Assembly: GCF_024734405.1 (NCBI RefSeq)
Contig: NZ_CP059556.1
Location: 2,790,001-2,854,000 of the forward strand
DNA from: Saccharopolyspora gregorii
GTDB lineage: Bacteria; Actinomycetota; Actinomycetes; Mycobacteriales; Pseudonocardiaceae
Length of the DNA: 64,000 bases
Direction: 5' to 3'
Shown one piece after another: positions 5,598-45,265 of the stretch (position 1 is its first letter; each line of letters opens with the position of its first letter). Under the pieces are notes generated by a model. That model saw only the letters and a list, made by a program, of their open reading frames with translations. It made no database searches and had not been told where the DNA came from. The translations under genes were made by a program, and so were the position numbers.

Positions 5598-6515
5598 TCA
5601 GCTCCCGGCGCTCGGCGCGGGCACCGCCGGGGCGGCGGCCCGCAGCTCGGCCAGCACGGCGGTGATCCCCGCGCGCCGCGCACCGGTGGCGAGCTCGCCC
5701 GCGCGCCGCGCACCCCGCGCGGAGGTGCACCACGCCCACCGCGCGTCGAGCACGCCACTGCCGGCGAGCACCTCCTCGGCAGCGGCCACCGCGGGCCATC
5801 CCCAGGCGGTCGCCTGCGCCGCCACCTTCCCGCCGCCGCGCACCGGATCGACCGCCAACGCGGGCACCCCGGCGCCGAGCGCGAACACCAGGCCGTGCAA
5901 CCGGGTCGTGACCACCACGTCGGTGCGCGCCACGAGCGCCGCGAACCGCTCCGGAGTCCCGCAGTGGTGCCACGAACCCGGATCCAGCCGGGTGTCCAGC
6001 TCGACCGGCGCGCACGCGACCCCGGCCACCCAGGACCGCAGCACCCGGTGCACGTCCTCGTGCCGACCGCGCCCGCCGTACTCCGGTTGGCCACCGGCGA
6101 GCACGATCCCCGCCACCGGGACCTCGGCACGCCCCACCTCCGCGGCCAGGTCGACCGCGGGCGCGCTGCCGGGCGCATCGCGCGGCAGCACCCGGTGGAA
6201 GCCGGTCACGGCGGGATCCGACCAGTCCAGCACGGACGCGCCCACCGCGATGCGCCGGGCGCGCGGGAACAGCCGGTGCACCTCGCGCACCTGCGCGCCG
6301 TGCAGCGGTCCGCACGCGAACACCACGACGTCGTAGTCCCGCCGCGCCGCCTCCGGCACGGTCAGCTCCCCGGGCCGGAAACCGGGGCTCCAGGCGACGT
6401 CGCAGCGGAACCCGGCCGAGGCGGCGGCACCGGCCACCGCCTCGGCGGCGGCGACATCACCCGCCGTCGCCTCCCCGTGCAGGAAGCTCGCCCAGCCGAG
6501 GACCAGGACCCGCAT
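5598..6515 (-). CDS. Polysaccharide pyruvyl transferase family protein
   Basis: A 305-residue protein starting MRVLVLGWASFLHGE at ATG 6515, which is preceded by GGAGGGA. The frame extends nine codons upstream, but the ribosome site favours this start. The C-terminal half has the family signature TTRLHGLVFALGAGVPALAVD. Family members add ketal pyruvate from phosphoenolpyruvate to sugars, or act as glycosyltransferase-like enzymes on surface polymers. In this locus it would decorate the glycan. Some family members are only distantly related to true pyruvyl transferases, so the reaction is inferred. Confidence 0.8.
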   Translation of the reverse strand: MRVLVLGWASFLHGEATAGDVAAAEAVAGAAASAGFRCDVAWSPGFRPGELTVPEAARRDYDVVVFACGPLHGAQVREVHRLFPRARRIAVGASVLDWSDPAVTGFHRVLPRDAPGSAPAVDLAAEVGRAEVPVAGIVLAGGQPEYGGRGRHEDVHRVLRSWVAGVACAPVELDTRLDPGSWHHCGTPERFAALVARTDVVVTTRLHGLVFALGAGVPALAVDPVRGGGKVAAQATAWGWPAVAAAEEVLAGSGVLDARWAWCTSARGARRAGELATGARRAGITAVLAELRAAAPAVPAPSAGS

Positions 6516-6607
6516 GCGCACTCCCTCCGGTTCGACCCCCACGTCGGCCTACCCGGTCGCGGGCGGCGCTACCCCCGGGTTTCGTCGCGGCGTGCGCGGG
6601 GGTACTC

Positions 6608-6712
6608 GGCTCATCAGGTCCGGGCTCATCGGGTCCGGGCTCACCCGGCCGGGGCTCACTGGGCTGGGGCTCACTGGGCTGGGGCTCACTGGGCTGGGGC
6701 TCACTGGCCCGG
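6608..6712. repeat. Seven-unit 15-bp tandem repeat
   Basis: Seven head-to-tail 15-bp units start at 6608, 6623, 6638, 6653, 6668, 6683 and 6698. The units starting at 6653, 6668 and 6683 are identical (GGCTCACTGGGCTGG), and the outer ones are degenerate. It sits in the 302-bp space between the divergent pyruvyl-transferase-like gene and the decarboxylase-like gene. More decayed copies may continue to about 6780. There are no spacers, so it is not a CRISPR array. A 15-bp period keeps one frame open, which explains the long spurious frame across it. Confidence 0.9.
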
Positions 6713-6817
6713 GGGCCAACCGGGTCGAGGACTCATCGGGCTCGGCGCACCGGCTCGGCGCGCACCGGGCCGGGAGCGAACCGGACCGGGATCGACCGGC
6801 CCGGGGAGGGGGAACCG

Positions 6818-7807
<990 letters not shown>

Positions 7808-7868
7808 CGCGGCCGTCGACGGGACCGCCCGGTGACCGGGTGCGGCCGGCCGGTTTGGCCGCGCCCCG

Positions 7869-7883
7869 GCGGGGAAACCCCGC
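7869..7883. terminator. Short GC hairpin after decarboxylase-like gene
   Basis: A perfect six-base stem, GCGGGG-aaa-CCCCGC, sits 62 bases after the decarboxylase-like stop and before the next gene. It lacks a T-run, as is usual for actinomycete terminators, so its role as a terminator is only possible. Confidence 0.35.
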
Positions 7884-7925
7884 GCGGCGGACGGTTCCAC
7901 GACCACGACCGGAGGAAGTTCGGCG

Positions 7926-8834
7926 ATGGTGAGCTGGCAGAGCAGGCTGACGATCGGCAAGTACCGGCTGACCCGGCGCAAGCGCGTGTTCGCCGACCCG
8001 GCACTGCTGCGCCGCAGCGCCGAGAGCCACGAATCCGAGCACGCCCAGCTGCCCGCGTCGTTCCGCGACCGGTTCGAGGTCACCGAGCTCGACGTGGACG
8101 GCCACTCCTGCTGCACGATCGCCCCGCCGGAACCGCGCAGCCCGCGGCACGTGCTGTACCTGCACGGCGGCGCCTACGTGCACCAGATCGAGGGCGCCCA
8201 CTGGGACTTCATCGATCGCCTGATCGCCCGCACCGGCGCGACGGTGTCGGTGCCGATCTACCCGCTCGCACCGGCGTACCGGTACTCGGAGACCCTGCCG
8301 ATGGTGTGGTCGTCGTTCCAGCGCACCACCGCCACCGCCGCGCCGGAGGACCAGGTGGTGATGGGTGATTCGGCAGGCGGCGCGCTGAGCCTGCACCTCG
8401 CGCGGCGCTGCGCCGAGCTCGGTCTCCCCCAACCCGGTCGCCTCGTGCTCATCTCGCCGTGGCTGGACATCGCGGTGAGCCACCCGTCGATGCCCGCGCT
8501 CGACCGGCAGGACCCGTACCTGGCCATCGCCGGGCTGCGCGAGGCCGGGCTGCTCTACGCGGGAGATCTCGACCCGCACGACCCGCGGGTGAGCCCGCTG
8601 TACGGGCGGCTCCGCGGTCTGGCGCCGATGCGGGTGCTCAGCGGCACCCGGGACGTGCTGCTGTCCGACGCGCGGCGGCTGGACTCCCTCGCTCGCGCGA
8701 ACGGCGCCGCGATCGACTACGAGGAGTACGAGGGCATGTTCCACGGCTGGATCCTGCAACGGCTTCCGGAGGCCCGGCACGCCCTCGACCGGACCGTGGA
8801 CTTCCTGCGCGACGGGGCGGCGAACTCCCGCTGA
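7926..8834 (+). CDS. Alpha/beta hydrolase, hormone-sensitive-lipase-like esterase
   Basis: A 302-residue esterase of the HSL (alpha/beta hydrolase 3) group. It shows the oxyanion motif YLHGGAYVHQ, the nucleophile elbow MGDSAGGALSLHLA, an acid strand LSGTRDVLLSDA and a late histidine in EGMFHGW, so a full catalytic triad is visible. ATG 7926 follows GGAGGAAG. The first 40 residues are basic with no clear signal peptide. It could deacylate the glycan or a precursor given its position, but such esterases are common and the substrate is unknown. Confidence 0.88.
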   Translation: MVSWQSRLTIGKYRLTRRKRVFADPALLRRSAESHESEHAQLPASFRDRFEVTELDVDGHSCCTIAPPEPRSPRHVLYLHGGAYVHQIEGAHWDFIDRLIARTGATVSVPIYPLAPAYRYSETLPMVWSSFQRTTATAAPEDQVVMGDSAGGALSLHLARRCAELGLPQPGRLVLISPWLDIAVSHPSMPALDRQDPYLAIAGLREAGLLYAGDLDPHDPRVSPLYGRLRGLAPMRVLSGTRDVLLSDARRLDSLARANGAAIDYEEYEGMFHGWILQRLPEARHALDRTVDFLRDGAANSR

Positions 8835-8858
8835 GCCCGGCCTCGCGCCTGGCCGGGC
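8835..8858. terminator. Hairpin directly after esterase stop
   Basis: A perfect eight-base stem, GCCCGGCC and GGCCGGGC, around an eight-base loop starts right after the TGA. The position suggests an intrinsic terminator without a T-run. The carbamoyltransferase begins 176 bases further on and may have its own promoter. Confidence 0.5.
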
Positions 8859-9033
8859 CGCCACGCCGCGGATCCGGAACGCGGTATTTCCGCTCTGTGC
8901 GGGGAAAAACGGCGGCGCCGGGCCGGAGGCCGCGGTTTGGGAGAGCCGCTTCGCTGGGTAGCGATGTGGTGCGGGTCCTTCGACTTCTGGAGGAACGCGG
9001 CAGGAATCCTTCCGAAGTCCCGGAGGTCCGATC

Positions 9034-10665
9034 GTGCGCGTCCTCGGCATCAACGCGGTCTTCCACGACCCGTCCGCCGCGCTCGTGGTGGACGGGGAAG
9101 TCGTGGCGGCGGCGGAGGAGGAGCGCTTCTCCCGCCGCAAGCACGGGAAGGAACCGGTGCCGTTCGCGGCCTGGGAACAGCCGGTGCGGGCCGCCGCCTG
9201 GTGCTTGCGGCACGCGGGCCTCGAACCCGGTGAGCTCGACGCGGTCGCGTGCTCCTACGACCCGTCGCTGGTCGACCGGGACGCGCCGGACACCTACCCG
9301 GCCTGGGAATGGCTGCGCACGACCTACGCCGAGCACGCGCCCCGGTTCCTCGCGACGGCGCTGCCCGGGCTGCCGCCCGAGCGGGTGCGGTTCGTGCCGC
9401 ACCACGTGGCGCACGCCGCGTCCGCCGGACTCGCCGCGCCGTGGCCGGACTGCGCGGTGCTCACCGTCGACGGCAGGGGCGAGAGCACGTCGATGCTCGC
9501 CGGGCACTACCGCGGCGGTCGGCTGGAAGTGCTGGCGCAGCAACGACTTCCGCACTCGCTCGGCCTGATGTACGAGGACCTGACCGAACACCTCGGGTTC
9601 CGCCGCTCCAGCGACGAGTACAAGGTGATGGCGCTGGCCGCCTACGCCGAACCCGAGTTCCTCCCCGAACTCACCGAGCGGATCCGTTGCGGCGGCGGAG
9701 GTTTCGAGGTCGACCCCGTCGACTGGAACCACTGGGCGCCGCGCCGCGCACCGGGGGCCGAACTGTCCGAAGTGCACGCGAAGCTCGCCGCCAGCGCGCA
9801 GGCCCGCGTCGAGGAGGTGCTGCTGGACCTGGCGAACTGGCTGGGGGAGCGGACCGGTGCCGACGCCCTCGCGCTCGCCGGCGGGGTGGCGCTGAACTGC
9901 GTGGCGAACACCCGGATCGCCGCCGACGGACCGTTCGAGCACGTGTGGGTGCAGCCCGCCGCCGGGGACGCGGGCACCGCGCTCGGCGCCGCGCTGCACG
10001 TCGCCGCCGAACGCGGACCGGTCGCGCCGATGGGCGGCGCCGACCTCGGCCGCGGCTTCACCGACGCCGAACTGCAGACCTGCCTGGAGGCGGCGCGGCT
10101 GCCGTACGAGAAGCCCGACGACGTCGGGGCCGAAGTCGCCGCCGCGGTGGCGCGCAACGAGGTCGTCGCCTGGTTCCAGGGGCGGTCGGAGTTCGGGCCG
10201 CGCGCGCTGGGCCACCGCTCGCTGCTGGCGCACCCGGGCCACGCGGACAACCTCGAACGGCTCAACGAGATCAAGGGGCGCGAGCAGTTCCGGCCGGTCG
10301 CCCCGATGGTCCGGGCCGAACGGGCCGGGGAGCTGTTCGCCCGCGGGCCGATCCCCAGCCCGCACATGCTGTTCGTGCACGACGTCGTCGAGCGCTGGCG
10401 GGATCGCATCCCGGCCGTGGTGCACGTGGACGGCACCGCGCGGATCCAGACCGTCGACGGCGACCGGGAACCGCTGCTCGCGCGGATGCTGAGCGCGTTC
10501 GAGGCCGAGACCGGGCTGCCGGTGGTGGTCAACACCAGCTTCAACACGGCGGGCCGCCCGATGGTGGACGGCCCGGTGGACGCGCTGGAGTGCTTCGGTT
10601 CCTCGCCGATCGACGTGCTCGCGCTCGGCCCGTTCGTGGTGCACCGCGGGAGGTGGGCGCGATGA
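9034..10665 (+). CDS. Carbamoyltransferase (NodU/CmcH/TobZ family)
   Basis: A 543-residue protein starting at GTG 9034 (GGAGG upstream) with MRVLGINAVFHDPSAALV. The Kae1-like N-terminal part has HHVAHAASAG and LTVDGRGESTSM. The middle has LAGGVALNCVANTRI and FQGRSEFGPRALGHRSLLA, and the C-terminal part PVVVNTSFN. These are the signatures of O-carbamoyltransferases, which transfer carbamoyl from carbamoyl phosphate via a carbamoyl-adenylate to a hydroxyl group. In this locus a sugar hydroxyl is the likely acceptor. Length is normal for the family. Its stop overlaps the next ATG, opening a long coupled operon. Confidence 0.93.
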   Translation: MRVLGINAVFHDPSAALVVDGEVVAAAEEERFSRRKHGKEPVPFAAWEQPVRAAAWCLRHAGLEPGELDAVACSYDPSLVDRDAPDTYPAWEWLRTTYAEHAPRFLATALPGLPPERVRFVPHHVAHAASAGLAAPWPDCAVLTVDGRGESTSMLAGHYRGGRLEVLAQQRLPHSLGLMYEDLTEHLGFRRSSDEYKVMALAAYAEPEFLPELTERIRCGGGGFEVDPVDWNHWAPRRAPGAELSEVHAKLAASAQARVEEVLLDLANWLGERTGADALALAGGVALNCVANTRIAADGPFEHVWVQPAAGDAGTALGAALHVAAERGPVAPMGGADLGRGFTDAELQTCLEAARLPYEKPDDVGAEVAAAVARNEVVAWFQGRSEFGPRALGHRSLLAHPGHADNLERLNEIKGREQFRPVAPMVRAERAGELFARGPIPSPHMLFVHDVVERWRDRIPAVVHVDGTARIQTVDGDREPLLARMLSAFEAETGLPVVVNTSFNTAGRPMVDGPVDALECFGSSPIDVLALGPFVVHRGRWAR

Positions 10666-12152
10666 GCGAGGCGGTGTACTCCGTGGTCGTCCCCACCGTG
10701 GGGCGGCCGAGCCTGCGCACCCTGCTGCACGCGTTGGAAGCCGCCGACGGCGTCCCACCGCGGGAGATCGTCGTCGTCGACGACCGCGCGAACCCCGCGC
10801 CACCGCTGGCGCAGGGCGTGGGTGCCACCCCGCTGCGGGTCGTCCGCACCGGCGGCCGGGGGCCGGCCGGGGCCCGCAACGCGGGATGGCGGGCGACCGG
10901 CACCGAATGGGTGGTGTTCCTGGACGACGACGTCGTGCCGGACGAGGACTGGAAGCGGCGGTTGCAGCACGACCTCGCCGCGCTGCCCCCGGAGGTCGCG
11001 GCCTCGCAGGCGCGCATCGAGGTCCCGCTCCCGCGGGACCGGCGGCCGACGGACTGGGAGCGCAACGTCGCGGGGCTCGCCGGGGCGTGGTGGATCACCG
11101 CGGACATGGCCTACCGCCGGGACGCGCTGGTGCGCTCCGGCGGATTCGACGAGGACTTCCCGCGCGCCTACCGGGAGGACGCCGATCTGGCGCTGCGGGT
11201 GCGCGCCACCGGCAGGCGGCTGGTCGCCGGGAGCCGCATCACCCGCCACCCGGTCCCGCCCGCCGGGTTCACCGCCAGCGTGCGGGCGCAGCGCGGCAAC
11301 GCCGACGACGTGCTGATGCGGCGCAAGCACGGGCGCGGCTGGCGCACCAGGATCGGTGAAGGACCCGGCAGGTTGCCCGCGCACCTGCTGACCACGGGCG
11401 CCGCGGTGCTGGCGCTGCTCACCGCCAAGCACCCGCTGCCGAGCCGCACCGCCGCCGCCGTCTGGGCGCTGGCGACCGCCGAGTTCGCGCTGCGGCGCAT
11501 CCTCCCCGGGCCGCGCACCGCGGCGGAGATCACCCGCATGGTGGTGACGAGCGCGCTGATCCCGCCGGTCGCGGTCCGGCACCGCGTCCGCGGCGAGCTG
11601 GCGCGGTCGCGTCCCCGGCGGAGCACGCCCGCCGCGGTGCTGTTCGACCGCGACGACACCCTCATCCGGGACGTGCCGTACAACGGCGAACCCGCGCTGG
11701 TCGAACCGGTGGCCGGGGCGGAGGCGGCGCTGCGGCGGCTGCGCGAGCGGGGGCTGCGGATCGGCGTGATCAGCAACCAGTCCGGCATCGCCCGGGGCCT
11801 GCTGGACGAGGCGCAGGTCGCCGCCGTCAACGACGCGGTGGAGCGGCGCCTCGGCCCGTTCGGCACCTGGCAGGTGTGCCCGCACGACGACGCGGCGCGC
11901 TGCGCCTGCCGCAAACCGGAGCCGGGCATGGTCGAAGAAGCCGCCGCGGCGATCGACGTGGCGCCCGCGGACTGCGTCGTCGTCGGTGACACGGGAGCCG
12001 ACGTGGAAGCGGCGCTCGCCGCCGGGGCCCGCGCCATCCTGGTGCCGACCGCGCGCACCCTGCCCGCCGAGATCCGCTCCGCCCACCGGCGCGCCGAGGT
12101 CGCCGCCACCCTCGGCGAGGCCGTGGACCGGCTCCTGGGGGCCGCGCGATGA
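10662..12152 (+). CDS. Fusion: GT2 glycosyltransferase + GmhB-type HAD phosphatase
   Basis: A 496-residue two-domain protein. Residues 1 to about 230 are a GT2 domain (SVVVPTVGRPSLRTLL, VVVDDRANP, ARNAGWRATG, VFLDDDVVPDEDW, REDADLALRVRATG). A linker with hydrophobic stretches follows. Residues about 325-496 are a HAD-IIIA domain with LFDRDDTLIRD as motif I, VISNQSGIARG as motif II and VVVGDTGADVEAAL as the acid motif. It also has the zinc knuckle CPHDDAARCACRKP typical of D,D-heptose-1,7-bisphosphate 7-phosphatase. It would remove the 7-phosphate in ADP-heptose synthesis and also transfer a sugar. ATGA overlaps occur at both ends. Confidence 0.88.
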   Translation: MSEAVYSVVVPTVGRPSLRTLLHALEAADGVPPREIVVVDDRANPAPPLAQGVGATPLRVVRTGGRGPAGARNAGWRATGTEWVVFLDDDVVPDEDWKRRLQHDLAALPPEVAASQARIEVPLPRDRRPTDWERNVAGLAGAWWITADMAYRRDALVRSGGFDEDFPRAYREDADLALRVRATGRRLVAGSRITRHPVPPAGFTASVRAQRGNADDVLMRRKHGRGWRTRIGEGPGRLPAHLLTTGAAVLALLTAKHPLPSRTAAAVWALATAEFALRRILPGPRTAAEITRMVVTSALIPPVAVRHRVRGELARSRPRRSTPAAVLFDRDDTLIRDVPYNGEPALVEPVAGAEAALRRLRERGLRIGVISNQSGIARGLLDEAQVAAVNDAVERRLGPFGTWQVCPHDDAARCACRKPEPGMVEEAAAAIDVAPADCVVVGDTGADVEAALAAGARAILVPTARTLPAEIRSAHRRAEVAATLGEAVDRLLGAAR

Positions 12153-41701: not shown

Positions 41702-41890
41702 TTGACATCGGCCACCGGGGCTGCGAACTTCTGAGCCGTTCGAACGACGGTGTGCAGGAAGCCGGTGCGAATCCGGCGCGGTCCCGCCACTGTGAGCGGG
41801 GAGTCGTCCTCCACCCGAGCCACTGCCGGTCCCCGGCGGGAAGGCCGGAGGCCGGTGCCGATCCGCGAGCCAGGAGACTGGCACCGTCGT
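41702..41890 (+). ncRNA. Cobalamin riboswitch with upstream promoter
   Basis: The AdoCbl aptamer core is clear: GCCGGTGCGAATCCGGCGCG (41761-41780), then CCCGCCACTGTGAGCGGGGA with the B12-box GCCACTG (41785-41804). A second GAGCCACTGCCGG (41817-41829), GGGAAGGCCGG, and GAGCCAGGAGACTGGC (41867-41882) follow in normal order. A TTGACA hexamer at 41702-41707 is the -35 box; the -10 box is weak. Binding of coenzyme B12 should lower expression of the downstream leader ORF and three genes. The GGGG...CCCC hairpin at 41902-41918, next to GGAGGAGG, is the likely expression platform. Confidence 0.93.
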
Positions 41891-41932
41891 GCCGATTCGT
41901 GCGGGGTCGCGGAGCCCCGGAGGAGGTACGTG

Positions 41933-41992
41933 GTGTCGCGCATCGCCGCATCGCGCCGGGAAGTCCGGCAAACCGTCCACATCGGACACTAG
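41933..41992 (+). CDS. Short leader ORF after the riboswitch
   Basis: The strongest ribosome site in this area, GGAGGAGG at 41919-41926, is followed by GTG 41930 and GTG 41933. They open a 19- to 20-codon frame (MSRIAASRREVRQTVHIGH) that stops with TAG at 41990-41992. The first large gene starts 63 bases later at GTG 42055 with only GGGGAGA in front. The leader may be the true target of the riboswitch, with coupled or attenuated expression of the genes behind it. No known leader family matches. Confidence 0.5.
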   Translation: MSRIAASRREVRQTVHIGH

Positions 41993-42054
41993 TCGTCCCC
42001 GCGGGTTCGTCCCGCCGCTGTGCGTTCCGTTCCGGTTCCAGCTCGGGGAGACAC

Positions 42055-42912
42055 GTGCGTCCTGCCACCACCACTGATCAGTCCTACGTGGACTCGCTGG
42101 TCGAGTCCGCGCTGTCCGGTCACGTCCGCGATGCGGGCGGGAACGGCCCGGCGGAGCTCTCCGCCGCCGTCGCGTTCCTGACCGTGCAGGCCGCCCGGCA
42201 CACCGGCCGCGGCACCGGCTACACCAACACCGTGCTCAGCGTCCGGATCGCCGACGCCGTCGGCTCGTGCGCCGTCGAACCCGGCGCCCTGGACGAGGAC
42301 GCGGTGCGCGACGCCGTGGGACGCACCGCGGCCGAGCTGCTGCGGCACCCGCTGCTGCCGGTTCGGGTCGCGGCGCTGGACGCCTACCTCGCCGCGCTCA
42401 CCCCGCACCCCGCGCACCCGCTGTCCCGGCAGGTGGTGATCCCGGCGGGCGACTCGCTGGCCAAGTCCACCGCCCGCGCCCGCGCGGTCGCCGCGATCAC
42501 CGCGGTCCCCGATGGCGGCCGGGTCGCGGTGATCGGCGTGGTGAACTCGCTGCTCGCCGCGCTGCGGGACCGCGGCCTCGACTACGTGCCCTGCGACCTC
42601 AAGGGCGGCCGCACCGAGTGGGACGAGCCGATCCGCACCGACCACGCCGCCGCGATCGACGGCGCGGACGCGGTGCTGGCCTCCGGCATGGTCCTCGGCA
42701 ACGGCACCTTCGACGACATCGCCGCGACCTGCGCGGCCCGCGACCTGCCGCTGACCCTGTTCGCGCAGACCGGATCCGCGGTGCTGCGGGAACTGCTCGG
42801 CGGCCCGGTGCGCGCGCTGTCGGCGGAGCCCTACCCGTTCTTCTGGCTCTCCGGCGAGGACACCACGATCCACACCTACGAGGCCGCCCGCGCCACCGAG
42901 GTCGTGCGGTGA
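42055..42912 (+). CDS. DUF4213/DUF364 putative heavy-metal chelation protein
   Basis: A 285-residue protein. The N-terminal half (TGRGTGYTNTVLSVRI) has the DUF4213 look. The C-terminal half, RVAVIGVVNSLLAALRDRG, CDLKGGRTEWDEP, GADAVLASGMVLGNGTFDDI, is the Rossmann-like DUF364 region, a family annotated as putative heavy-metal chelation. It is first in the cobalamin-riboswitch operon and overlaps the PLP enzyme gene by GTGA. Binding of cobalt or another transition metal is inferred from family naming and from the B12 control. Confidence 0.8.
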   Translation: MRPATTTDQSYVDSLVESALSGHVRDAGGNGPAELSAAVAFLTVQAARHTGRGTGYTNTVLSVRIADAVGSCAVEPGALDEDAVRDAVGRTAAELLRHPLLPVRVAALDAYLAALTPHPAHPLSRQVVIPAGDSLAKSTARARAVAAITAVPDGGRVAVIGVVNSLLAALRDRGLDYVPCDLKGGRTEWDEPIRTDHAAAIDGADAVLASGMVLGNGTFDDIAATCAARDLPLTLFAQTGSAVLRELLGGPVRALSAEPYPFFWLSGEDTTIHTYEAARATEVVR

Positions 42913-44012
42913 CGGGTCGCGCGCCCGCCCGCTGCGACTCGGCCCTGGATCTGATCGGAGGCACCCCGCTGCTGCGGGTCGCCGCGCCGATCGCGTTCCC
43001 GCACCCGGGTTTCTGGGCGAAGCTGGAGAGCACCGCGCCGGGCGGCATGAAGGCCCGCGCCGCGCACGCCATGCTCACCGGGGCCCGGGCCCGCGGAGAA
43101 CTGCGCCCCGGCGGGACGGTCGTCGAGTCCACCAGCGGCACCCTGGGCATCGGCTTGGCGTACGTGGGGACCGCGCTGGGCCACCCGGTCGTCGTGGTCG
43201 CCGACGCGGAGCTCGACGGGCAGACCCGCGCGCTGCTCACCGCGCACGGGGTGCGGGTGGAGCTGGTGCGCGACCCGCACCCGGTGGGCGGCTGGCAGCG
43301 CGCGCGGCTGGACCGGGTGCGGGAGCTGCTGGCCGAGCTGCCCGGGGCGTACTGGCCGGACCAGTACAACAACCCGGACAACGTCACCGGCTACCGCGCG
43401 CTCGGCCACGAACTGCTGGACCAGCTGCCGGACGCGCAGGTCGTGGTGTGCAGCGTCGGCACCGGCGGGCACAGCGCCGGCATCGCGCGGGCGCTGCGCG
43501 AGCGCGCCCCCGGGGTGCGGCTGGTCGGGGTGGACGCGGCGGGGTCCGCGGTGTTCGGCGACCCGGTGGCGAAGCGCCTGATGCGCGGCCTCGGCAGCAG
43601 CATCCACCCCGGCAACGTGGACTACGCGGCGTTCGACGAGGTGCACCTGGTCGGCGCGGCGGAGTCCGTCGCGGCCTGCCACCGGCTCGCCGCCGGCGCG
43701 TTCGTCACCGGCGGCTGGAGCACCGGCGCGGTGGCGCTGGTGGCGTCCTGGTGCGCCCGGGAGCTCGGCGCGGACCAGGTGGCCGCGGTGTTCCCGGACG
43801 GGCCGCACCGCTACTGGGGGACGATCTACGACCCGGACTTCCTCGCCGCGCAGGACTTCCCGGAACCCGCCGCCGAACCGGTGGACGCGGACGGCATACC
43901 GTCCGAAGTGGACAGCAGAACGACGTGGAGGAGGTCGCGCAAGGTGGTCGATCCGTGTGCCCGGCGAGCCGACGGCCCGGCGGAATGCCCGGTCTGCGAG
44001 GTGCGGCCGTGA
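42909..44012 (+). CDS. PLP-dependent cysteine-synthase-like enzyme
   Basis: A 367-residue fold-type II PLP enzyme. DLIGGTPLLRVAAP and APGGMKARAAHAML carry the PLP lysine; STSGTLGIGLAYVG replaces the usual TSGNTG; SVGTGGHSAGIARAL is the phosphate loop. Relatives (CysK, SbnA-like) carry out beta-replacement on O-activated serine to give cysteine, 2,3-diaminopropionate precursors or other amino acids. The C-terminal 50 residues form an added tail with CPVCE. It overlaps both neighbours by GTGA, so the three genes form one unit. Confidence 0.9.
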   Translation: MTGRAPARCDSALDLIGGTPLLRVAAPIAFPHPGFWAKLESTAPGGMKARAAHAMLTGARARGELRPGGTVVESTSGTLGIGLAYVGTALGHPVVVVADAELDGQTRALLTAHGVRVELVRDPHPVGGWQRARLDRVRELLAELPGAYWPDQYNNPDNVTGYRALGHELLDQLPDAQVVVCSVGTGGHSAGIARALRERAPGVRLVGVDAAGSAVFGDPVAKRLMRGLGSSIHPGNVDYAAFDEVHLVGAAESVAACHRLAAGAFVTGGWSTGAVALVASWCARELGADQVAAVFPDGPHRYWGTIYDPDFLAAQDFPEPAAEPVDADGIPSEVDSRTTWRRSRKVVDPCARRADGPAECPVCEVRP

Positions 44013-45265
44013 ACCGCGCCGCGTTCGCCCGGTTGTCCCCGGCGGCGAAGCTGCTGGTGATCAACCAGTTCGGCATCAACGTCGGCTTCTACATGCTGAT
44101 GCCGTTCCTGGCCGCGTACATGAGCGGGAACCTCGGCTACGGCGCCGCCGTGGTCGGGCTCGTGCTCGGGGTGCGGAACCTGAGCCAGCAGGGCATGTTC
44201 CTGCTCGGCGGCACCGCGGCGGACCGGCTCGGCTGCCGGCCGATGATCATCGCCGGTTGCGCGCTGCGCGTGGTGTCGTTCGGCCTGTTCGCCGTGTTCA
44301 CCACGCTGCCCGGCCTGTTCGCCGCCGCGATCCTCACCGGTCTGGCGGGGGCGCTGTTCAACCCGGCGGTGCGGACCTACCTGATGCACGAGGCGGGGGA
44401 GCGGCGCGCCGAGGTCTTCGCCGTGTTCAACGTGTTCCAGCACGCGGGCACCCTGGTGGGGCCGCTGCTGGGCGCGGCGCTGCTGGCGGTGGACTTCCGG
44501 GTCATCGCACTGGTGGCGTGCGTGGCGTTCGCGGTGCTCACCGGCGCGCAGCTGCTGGTGCTGCCGCACCGCGAGGTCGAGCCGCAGCGCCAGAGCGTGC
44601 TGGGCAGCTGGCGGGAAGTGGTGCTGAACCGCCGGTTCCTCGGCTTCACCCTGGCGCTGTCGGCGTACTTCGCGCTCTACAACCAGCTCTACCTGACGCT
44701 GCCGCTGGAGGCGCAGCGGGTGTCCGGGGTGGCGTGGTCCATCGCCGTCGTGTTCGGGGTGTCCACGCTGATCGGCGTGTTCGGGCAGGTGCGGATCACC
44801 GAGTGGTGCCGGGCGCGGTGGAGCTCCGGCCGGTCCATCGTGGTCGGCCTGGCCTGCATGGGCGGCTCGTTCGTGCCGATCCTGCTGGCCGCACCCGTGC
44901 TGCCGGAACGGCTGCCCGTCGGCGGCATCGCCGGGACGGTGCTGGCGTTCGTGCCCGTGGTGCTCGCGATCGTGCTGTTCACCGTCGGGCAGGCGATGAC
45001 GAACCCGTTCGCGATGGAACTGCTTCCCGCGGTCGGCAGCGAACGCCTCGCCGGCACCTACTACGGCTTCTACTACCTGGTCTCCAGCCTGGTCGCGGCC
45101 GCGGTCAGCTGGCTGGCGGGCGCGCTGCTGGACGCCTTCGCCGAGCCGGGGATGCGCTGGCTGCCGTGGGCGGTGCTGCTGCTGGTGGGCCTCGCGGGCA
45201 GCGCGGGCACCCGCCTGCTGGAACGCCGGGGAGCGCTCACCCCCAACACCCCGGCCGACGCCTGA
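44009..45265 (+). CDS. MFS transporter, efflux type
   Basis: A 418-residue major facilitator with about twelve helices. GFYMLMPFLAAYMSGNLGYG is the first helix, LGGTAADRLGCRPMII the loop 2-3 motif, NPFAMELLPAVGSERLAGTYYGFYY the later conserved part (given in pieces). This is the DHA1-like exporter branch. As the last gene of the B12-riboswitch operon it is likely to export the product of the PLP enzyme. It is followed by a GAGGACC/GGTCCTC hairpin. Confidence 0.88.
   Translation: MNRAAFARLSPAAKLLVINQFGINVGFYMLMPFLAAYMSGNLGYGAAVVGLVLGVRNLSQQGMFLLGGTAADRLGCRPMIIAGCALRVVSFGLFAVFTTLPGLFAAAILTGLAGALFNPAVRTYLMHEAGERRAEVFAVFNVFQHAGTLVGPLLGAALLAVDFRVIALVACVAFAVLTGAQLLVLPHREVEPQRQSVLGSWREVVLNRRFLGFTLALSAYFALYNQLYLTLPLEAQRVSGVAWSIAVVFGVSTLIGVFGQVRITEWCRARWSSGRSIVVGLACMGGSFVPILLAAPVLPERLPVGGIAGTVLAFVPVVLAIVLFTVGQAMTNPFAMELLPAVGSERLAGTYYGFYYLVSSLVAAAVSWLAGALLDAFAEPGMRWLPWAVLLLVGLAGSAGTRLLERRGALTPNTPADA

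Follow-up and report, generated by a model that had tools for sequence, protein, structure and literature searches.

A three-gene operon of Saccharopolyspora gregorii, encoding a DUF364-fold protein, a pyridoxal phosphate (PLP)-dependent enzyme and a major facilitator superfamily (MFS) transporter behind a cobalamin (B12) riboswitch, was analyzed within a 64 kb window, that is, the whole stretch of DNA from base 2790001 to 2854000 of the 6.34 Mb single-contig genome. The operon probably represents the make-and-release half of a minimal metallophore system that is repressed by B12 and most likely serves cobalt. Plentiful cobalamin would turn the operon off through the riboswitch, and scarcity would allow its expression. 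The SbnA-like PLP enzyme would then couple serine-derived aminoacrylate to the amine of an amino acid, and the resulting N-(2-amino-2-carboxyethyl)-amino acid, which may already form a chelator core, would be modified or condensed by the DUF364 enzyme. The MFS protein would export the product, a NikA/Opp-type ATP-binding cassette (ABC) importer would recapture the metal complex, and the imported cobalt would feed CobN and corrin synthesis.

The anatomy of the operon, its conservation, the riboswitch control shared at the sequence level and its kinship with a sister cluster that has Zur-like boxes were observed directly. An earlier note on this DNA had proposed a small metal-scavenging molecule made at low B12. 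This idea gains comparative support because Zur-like boxes precede the sister cluster, a co-regulated importer is nearest to nickel families, and the transporter families CbiM and NicO are depleted in operon-carrying genomes; cobalt as the metal, the product, the outward direction of MFS transport and the effect of B12 are what we infer from here on.

Conservation of the operon and its importer

The cobalamin riboswitch (RF00174) is the sole Rfam match at gathering score in the window, where it is aligned at full length with 96.5 bits against a cut-off of 31.5. Rfam and the reading of open reading frames (ORFs) agree with the earlier note on its place ahead of three GTGA-linked genes and on all their positions; the overlaps, read from the sequence, lie at 42909-42912 and 44009-44012. 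DUF364 relatives were found in 134 of 297 genomes of the family. Altogether 30 family loci were fetched, and 24 of these, the window included, carry an MFS gene directly after the PLP gene and are referred to as B12-type. A cobalamin riboswitch precedes all 23 B12-type relatives (12/12 and 11/11 in two scans) and hence 24/24 with the window, so that the three-gene set does recur behind such riboswitches in other actinomycetes, a check proposed at the outset. The DUF364 stretches of the 24 loci all differ. Among lower-ranking family matches 20 regions and a few later ones were read, and further B12-type loci may exist.

Named genomes were scanned as well and gave 290 DUF364 relatives, of which the best 80 were kept, including 15 B12-type loci: nine in Saccharopolyspora, three in Actinopolyspora, and one each in Saccharomonospora, Prauserella and a metagenome-assembled genome. 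Of the nine Saccharopolyspora, NFXS83 and HNM0986 correspond to genomes counted here in the genus of the window. Since each DUF364 stretch of the 15 is identical to one of the 24, these loci name the family set and do not add to it. The riboswitch was seen in 8/8 of the named B12-type loci scanned as long stretches. A class sample of 394 genomes contained 30 with DUF364 relatives, and no riboswitch was found within ~1.5 kb at its eight best loci from outside the family (L059-L066).

All three genes of the earlier note are present; the system, however, appears to comprise biosynthesis, export and import, with the importer operon located elsewhere in the genome. This operon stands behind a riboswitch of 97.8 bits, the highest score among the eight cobalamin riboswitches of the genome, and encodes an SBP_bac_5 substrate-binding protein (SBP) and two permeases. 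The best NCBIfam match of the SBP is the nickel family Opp5A (116.2 bits, cut-off 600), followed by GsiB and NikA (75.5 bits, cut-off 393), with a weaker match to CntA (32.6 bits, cut-off 800). For the single permease tested, nickel Opp2C is the closest family, ahead of Opp4C and nickel/cobalt Opp1C. All these matches are below cut-off. In 14 of the 24 operon genomes a close SBP relative starts ~2.5 kb after the DUF364 gene on the same strand, which leaves room for the PLP and MFS genes. In nine others (all six of the window's genus together with G129, G207 and G185) the SBP gene is located elsewhere and has its own cobalamin riboswitch in 9/9 cases, and the remaining genome, G247, has no close match to the importer SBP (38% identity at best). 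The order DUF364, PLP, MFS, SBP, permease, permease, ATPase could be read off directly in 11 of the 15 B12-type loci from named genomes. At the level of sequence, the genes for making, exporting and importing the product are thus under one control, being either all behind cobalamin riboswitches or adjacent. The riboswitches of the operon and of the importer share 83% identity in the window's genome, and each is at most 71% identical to the other six. The two operons look like a single operon that was split with both switches kept. The importer SBP is 44% identical to that of the sister cluster in the same genome; used as a query against this genome, it detected no third SBP at E 1e-90. As a separate observation, the importer is followed, at L118 3200-4340, by repeated GAACGGACCGTTCGTCC-like sequence where other loci have the ATPase gene.

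Importer-only loci scanned for riboswitches were L136, L154-L159, L254, L255 and L257-L261. Three of them (L254 in G230, L255 in G045 and L260 in G040) combine the importer with a riboswitch of 35-48 bits and have no DUF364, PLP or MFS gene nearby, and these genomes are possible users of a metallophore made by others. Importer and riboswitch (32-40 bits) without the operon also occur on the short stretches L156, L158 and L159. Locus L257 (G268:C2:1103000-1119000, 5710-11200) retains a 95-bit riboswitch followed by a PLP match of about half length, the MFS gene and the importer, with no DUF364 match; it looks like a case in which biosynthesis was lost and uptake kept. No riboswitch was found at the importer in the importer relatives L258, L259 and L261. 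Beside the importer in one genus (g5) we also noted a protein of 124-128 amino acids with CRGCCCG and CLGPC motifs (L256 7117-7491, L258 7657-8043, L259 12108-12494); neither Pfam nor NCBIfam gave a match to its L256 copy at E 0.001.

A sister cluster behind Zur-like boxes

A second DUF364 gene, whose product is 54-55% identical to that of the window, occurs at 1.14 Mb of the same genome. It belongs to a cluster ordered as ATP-grasp, DUF364, PLP, enolase-superfamily enzyme, MFS, methyltransferase, SBP, permease, permease, with an ATPase gene next. B12-type loci correspond to this order minus the ATP-grasp, epimerase and methyltransferase genes. The other 65 of the best 80 named loci, mostly from Streptomyces with some from Rhodococcus and one from Saccharothrix, show the sister order up to contig limits, with two exceptions: L197 has no MFS or importer match on a full-length stretch, and the matches of L218 are broken up.

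Ahead of the ATP-grasp gene, a Zur-like box (TGAAAATGATTATCG) was found at 11 or more of 15 consensus positions in 60 of these 65 loci, compared with 0.5% of 1300 shuffles that preserve base composition only. A similar box, scored without a shuffle control, is present at 10-13 of 15 positions in 10/10 sister loci of the family. In the window's genome the box has 26 matches at up to three mismatches versus one for a reversed control pattern, and one of these lies 54 bases before the ATP-grasp gene of the sister cluster. Eight of the 26 loci were annotated by eye. Three have no zinc gene nearby (L269, L275, L287). The remaining five sites precede a 40-amino-acid L36-like ribosomal gene, L36 being a Zur target, a ZnuBC-like pair, a salicylate-synthase-like siderophore cluster (two boxes) and the sister SBP gene. 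The Zur regulon of Streptomyces coelicolor includes znuABC, ribosomal paralogues and the coelibactin genes, according to passages of PMC6103462. Because Zur-like boxes stand both at the sister cluster and at genes of this Zur-regulon type, this cluster probably makes a metallophore for zinc. We found it described in none of the open PubMed Central papers that made up our literature search.

Rfam scanning of nine large sister regions revealed no riboswitch at the cluster; a match in L046 lies ~3 kb away before another gene. Sister loci L059-L067 entered a further scan with flanks of only ~1.5 kb, and L053, L229-type and other named sister loci lay outside both. In quick trees without bootstrap, the PLP enzymes of B12-type loci group together (98% SH-aLRT) next to those of Zur-boxed loci. 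The same holds for the DUF364 proteins (90% SH-aLRT), whose B12-type clade also takes in the riboswitch-less L256. Origin of the B12 operon as a recent copy of the sister cluster was rejected, as both trees place the two types as sister clades.

Cobalt supply and competing explanations

CbiM was detected in 174 of the 297 family genomes and NicO in 170, of which 148 score over the cut-off. With L256 and the decayed L257 counted among the others, CbiM or NicO (NicO at E <1e-20) is present in 9/24 operon genomes versus 225/273 other genomes (Fisher p=5e-6). When the window's genus is reduced to one genome the numbers become 9/19 versus 225/273 (p=0.001), and for CbiM alone they are 6/24 versus 168/273 (p=0.0008). 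The six genomes of the window's genus have no CbiM or NicO match (6/6), nor any CbtA over cut-off (6/6), with two weak CbtA matches in relatives. CobN, in turn, was found in 24/24 operon genomes and in 39/39 genomes with operon or importer.

A number of observations weigh against a B12-repressed cobalt metallophore. The depletion rests on CbiM, as NicO alone shows no difference at E <1e-20 (9/24 versus 114/273, p=0.83), and its difference is borderline when matches up to E 0.001 are counted (9/24 versus 161/273, p=0.05). The genomes counted are related through shared ancestry and hence not independent, nine operon genomes do carry CbiM or NicO, and both families also serve nickel. The CobN count covers only genomes with the operon or the importer. 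Locus L256 (G211) has the whole gene set, and the stretch before it gave no riboswitch match when E values up to 1 were admitted. In the window's genome, the sequence read for the separate importer operon contains no ATPase gene, and the closest relative of the ATPase of other loci (50% identity) sits in the sister cluster. Finally, two further FecCD-type ABC importers are located behind cobalamin riboswitches of this genome (L123, L124); one of them may carry corrinoids and the other might carry cobalt.

An unlikely alternative is a metallophore for zinc or another metal. MetE is a zinc enzyme, and a shortage of B12 could shift the cell to its use, with a B12-switched zincophore supplying the zinc. 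Such a role would agree with the Zur-like boxes of the sister cluster and with the location of metE (L120, by eye) behind a cobalamin riboswitch of the same genome. However, this genome already holds the Zur-boxed cluster, the depletion of CbiM and NicO points to cobalt or nickel, and CobN occurs in every operon genome, with the above limit on that count. It is quite improbable that the system supplies corrinoids, with the importer taking up a corrinoid or peptide and the PLP and DUF364 enzymes making a cobamide precursor or ligand without any secreted chelator. Cobalamin riboswitches commonly govern corrinoid synthesis and uptake, and others in this genome precede cob genes, cobN and BtuFCD-like genes (named by eye). 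The pocket of the DUF364 structure 3L5O is similar to B12- and heme-binding sites (P 0.01-0.02, in a passage of PMC2954201). A corrinoid role nevertheless leaves unexplained the same enzyme-MFS-importer core behind Zur-like boxes in the sister cluster, and BtuFCD-like importers are already provided behind other cobalamin riboswitches of the genome. The least probable explanation is that the product has no part in metal capture and only an indirect link to B12, being a common amino acid or a bioactive compound such as an antibiotic, a signal or something diaminopropionate-like. It could draw on CmnB, the best Protein Data Bank (PDB) match of the PLP enzyme and a capreomycin synthesis protein, and on a PLP-MFS pair of Streptomyces scabiei (L253 7520-10041, 10.01 Mb; 54% and 46% identical to the window's proteins) with no DUF364 or importer match in 16 kb. 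It is opposed by the Zur-like boxes of the sister cluster and by an importer with nickel systems as nearest curated families under a near-identical riboswitch.

A more far-reaching version of the cobalt metallophore reading has, in our estimate, an even chance of being correct. The operon and importer would form a pathway devoted to a cobalt metallophore ('cobaltophore') and, in biosynthesis, the counterpart of the widespread actinobacterial zinc-type cluster. DUF364 and the SbnA-like enzyme would be the core of a new small-metallophore class in which the regulator, B12 riboswitch or Zur, tells the metal, and the importer-only relatives with riboswitches would be cheaters.

Leader, predicted chemistry and relation to known systems

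The features of the operon are listed in Table 1. The hairpin stem behind the aptamer has one base changed in the two operon leaders where it is not exact, and is exact in 9/9 importer leaders. The leader ORF varies from 19 to 38 codons across the 24 operon leaders, of which 22 are distinct as riboswitch-plus-leader sequences, and its peptide sequence is not conserved. Cobalamin riboswitches that act with translated leader ORFs are known from Mycobacterium tuberculosis, as described in part of PMC11260477. A likely mechanism would be that the B12-bound state occludes the ribosome-binding site (RBS) of the leader and that operon expression depends on leader translation. Two other cobalamin riboswitches of the genome precede a ribonucleotide-reductase-like gene pair (L119 4056-8329) and metE (L120 848-3507), both named by eye; these two riboswitches share 72% identity, and their identity to that of the window is about 50%.

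Table 1. Features of the riboswitch-controlled operon (positions within the window)
Feature	Position	Strand	Evidence
Cobalamin riboswitch aptamer RF00174	41733..41900	+	cmscan 96.5 bits, E 8.3e-23, model 1-189/189
Conserved hairpin CGGGG-loop-CCCCG adjoining the leader RBS; probable part of the expression platform	41902..41919	+	exact stem in 22/24 operon leaders
Shine-Dalgarno-like GGAGGAGG of the leader ORF	41919..41926	+	exact in 24/24 operon leaders and 6/9 importer leaders
Short leader ORF of 20 codons, starting with GTG and ending in TAG; probably under riboswitch control	41930..41992	+	ORF here in 24/24 operon leaders
DUF364-fold protein, 285 amino acids, predicted enzyme	42055..42912	+	Pfam DUF364 21.2 bits (cut-off 23); model matches 3l5o, 3npg
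SbnA/CmnB-like PLP-dependent enzyme, 367 amino acids	42909..44012	+	PALP E 4.3e-53; SbnA best NCBIfam; CmnB, SbnA nearest structures
MFS transporter, 418 amino acids, presumed product exporter	44009..45265	+	MFS_1 E 5.8e-36; MdtH best NCBIfam

The DUF364 protein remains under the gathering cut-off of Pfam PF04016, which a 46% identical homologue at L049 passes with 47.4 bits. For an AlphaFold2 model based on 19 orthologues (mean pLDDT 87.7), the six best PDB matches are all chains of the DUF364 structures 3l5o and 3npg (E 1.1e-8 to 3.8e-6; best per structure 1.1e-8 and 4.4e-7, respectively); a PDB search with the sequence gave no match at E up to 1. The authors of 3L5O describe conserved residues in an inter-domain pocket and propose an enzyme of chelating-compound synthesis, in the passages of PMC2954201 used here. 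Since the model matches this structure, whose authors infer an inter-domain active site, the window protein is more likely an enzyme than a metal binder. We rejected the metal-binding role, which the earlier note had taken from the family name, given that these authors argue for an enzyme.

The PLP enzyme matches the PALP family; CmnB and then SbnA are the closest solved structures, ahead of cysteine synthases. SbnA (TIGR03945, 2,3-diaminopropionate biosynthesis) is also the best of 26 NCBIfam families, with 243.3 bits below the cut-off of 349.95. A lysine of the enzyme aligns with that of the K-x-R motif in CmnB and SbnA, which we take to be the PLP-binding residue. The MFS protein is best matched by the multidrug exporter MdtH (144.5 bits, below the cut-off of 469). 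By analogy with SbnA, whose product is given as N-(2-amino-2-carboxyethyl)-L-glutamate in part of PMC12414870, an N-(2-amino-2-carboxyethyl)-amino acid made here would itself be an aminopolycarboxylate. With the PLP and DUF364 enzymes as its only builders, the B12-type product would be expected to be the smaller of the two, since the sister cluster has an ATP-grasp ligase, an epimerase-like enzyme and a methyltransferase in addition.

The closest described systems are the Zur-controlled EDDS of Amycolatopsis japonicum and the siderophore EDHA of S. scabiei (from passages of PMC6103462, PMC4993170 and PMC8914351). We located the presumed EDHA region through a PLP homologue at 0.60 Mb that fits the tags scab_5231-5311 named in part of PMC8914351, the conversion of tags to positions being an estimate. 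Like the system described here, this region has an SbnA-like PLP enzyme (34% identical), an exporter and an Opp-type ABC importer (SBP 32%). In contrast, it has no DUF364 match and contains SbnB-, decarboxylase-, hydroxylase- and MATE-like genes (by eye). Control tied to metal status is a feature shared with EDDS (from the cited parts of PMC6103462 and PMC4993170), whereas a cobalamin riboswitch sets the operon apart from both. Membership in an EDHA/staphyloferrin type was rejected, as the operon consists of DUF364, PLP and MFS genes only, with no SbnB-like or decarboxylase-like gene. The sister cluster of S. scabiei was likewise rejected as its EDHA cluster, being located at 9.09 Mb rather than at 0.60 Mb.

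Other known systems resemble parts of the proposed pathway. The sister DUF364 cluster shares with it the order of DUF364, PLP, MFS, SBP and permease genes, with a Zur-like box in place of the riboswitch. SbnA of staphyloferrin B and CmnB of capreomycin are the nearest solved relatives of the PLP enzyme, and the operon lacks an SbnB-like gene. Among importers, the nickel SBPs Opp5A and NikA are the best curated relatives of the SBP, with CntA of staphylopine a weaker match. CbiMNQO, NiCoT and CbtAB have the same proposed role, cobalt for corrin synthesis, but carry the ion and come with no biosynthesis genes. PMC2667541 gives further predicted cobalt transporters besides CbiMNQO and NiCoT, and none of those named in the part cited is a metallophore system. 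A 2021 review of cobalt for B12 (PMC7689651) treats cobalt uptake, in the portion cited, as a matter of transporters only, and a word search of its main text gave no occurrence of metallophore, siderophore or chelator. No metallophore under B12 control was named in the open PubMed Central literature searched. Zinc- or iron-controlled metallophore clusters are known; within that literature a B12-controlled one appears to be new.

If the proposed function is correct, a make-export-import set under B12 would constitute a dedicated route of cobalt scavenging, and would account for the cobalt supply of B12-making actinomycetes that have no CbiMNQO or NiCoT. DUF364, annotated as 'putative heavy-metal chelation' without a known reaction, would gain a concrete biosynthetic setting. 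The presence of a Zur-boxed and a B12-switched cluster in one genome makes the choice of metal directly testable. A third type of DUF364 cluster was observed at L049 1917-9476, where the gene occurs with a more distant PLP enzyme, a GHMP kinase, a FecCD-type importer and an MFS gene; DUF364 again stands in a transport setting there, and this cluster is perhaps another metallophore class.

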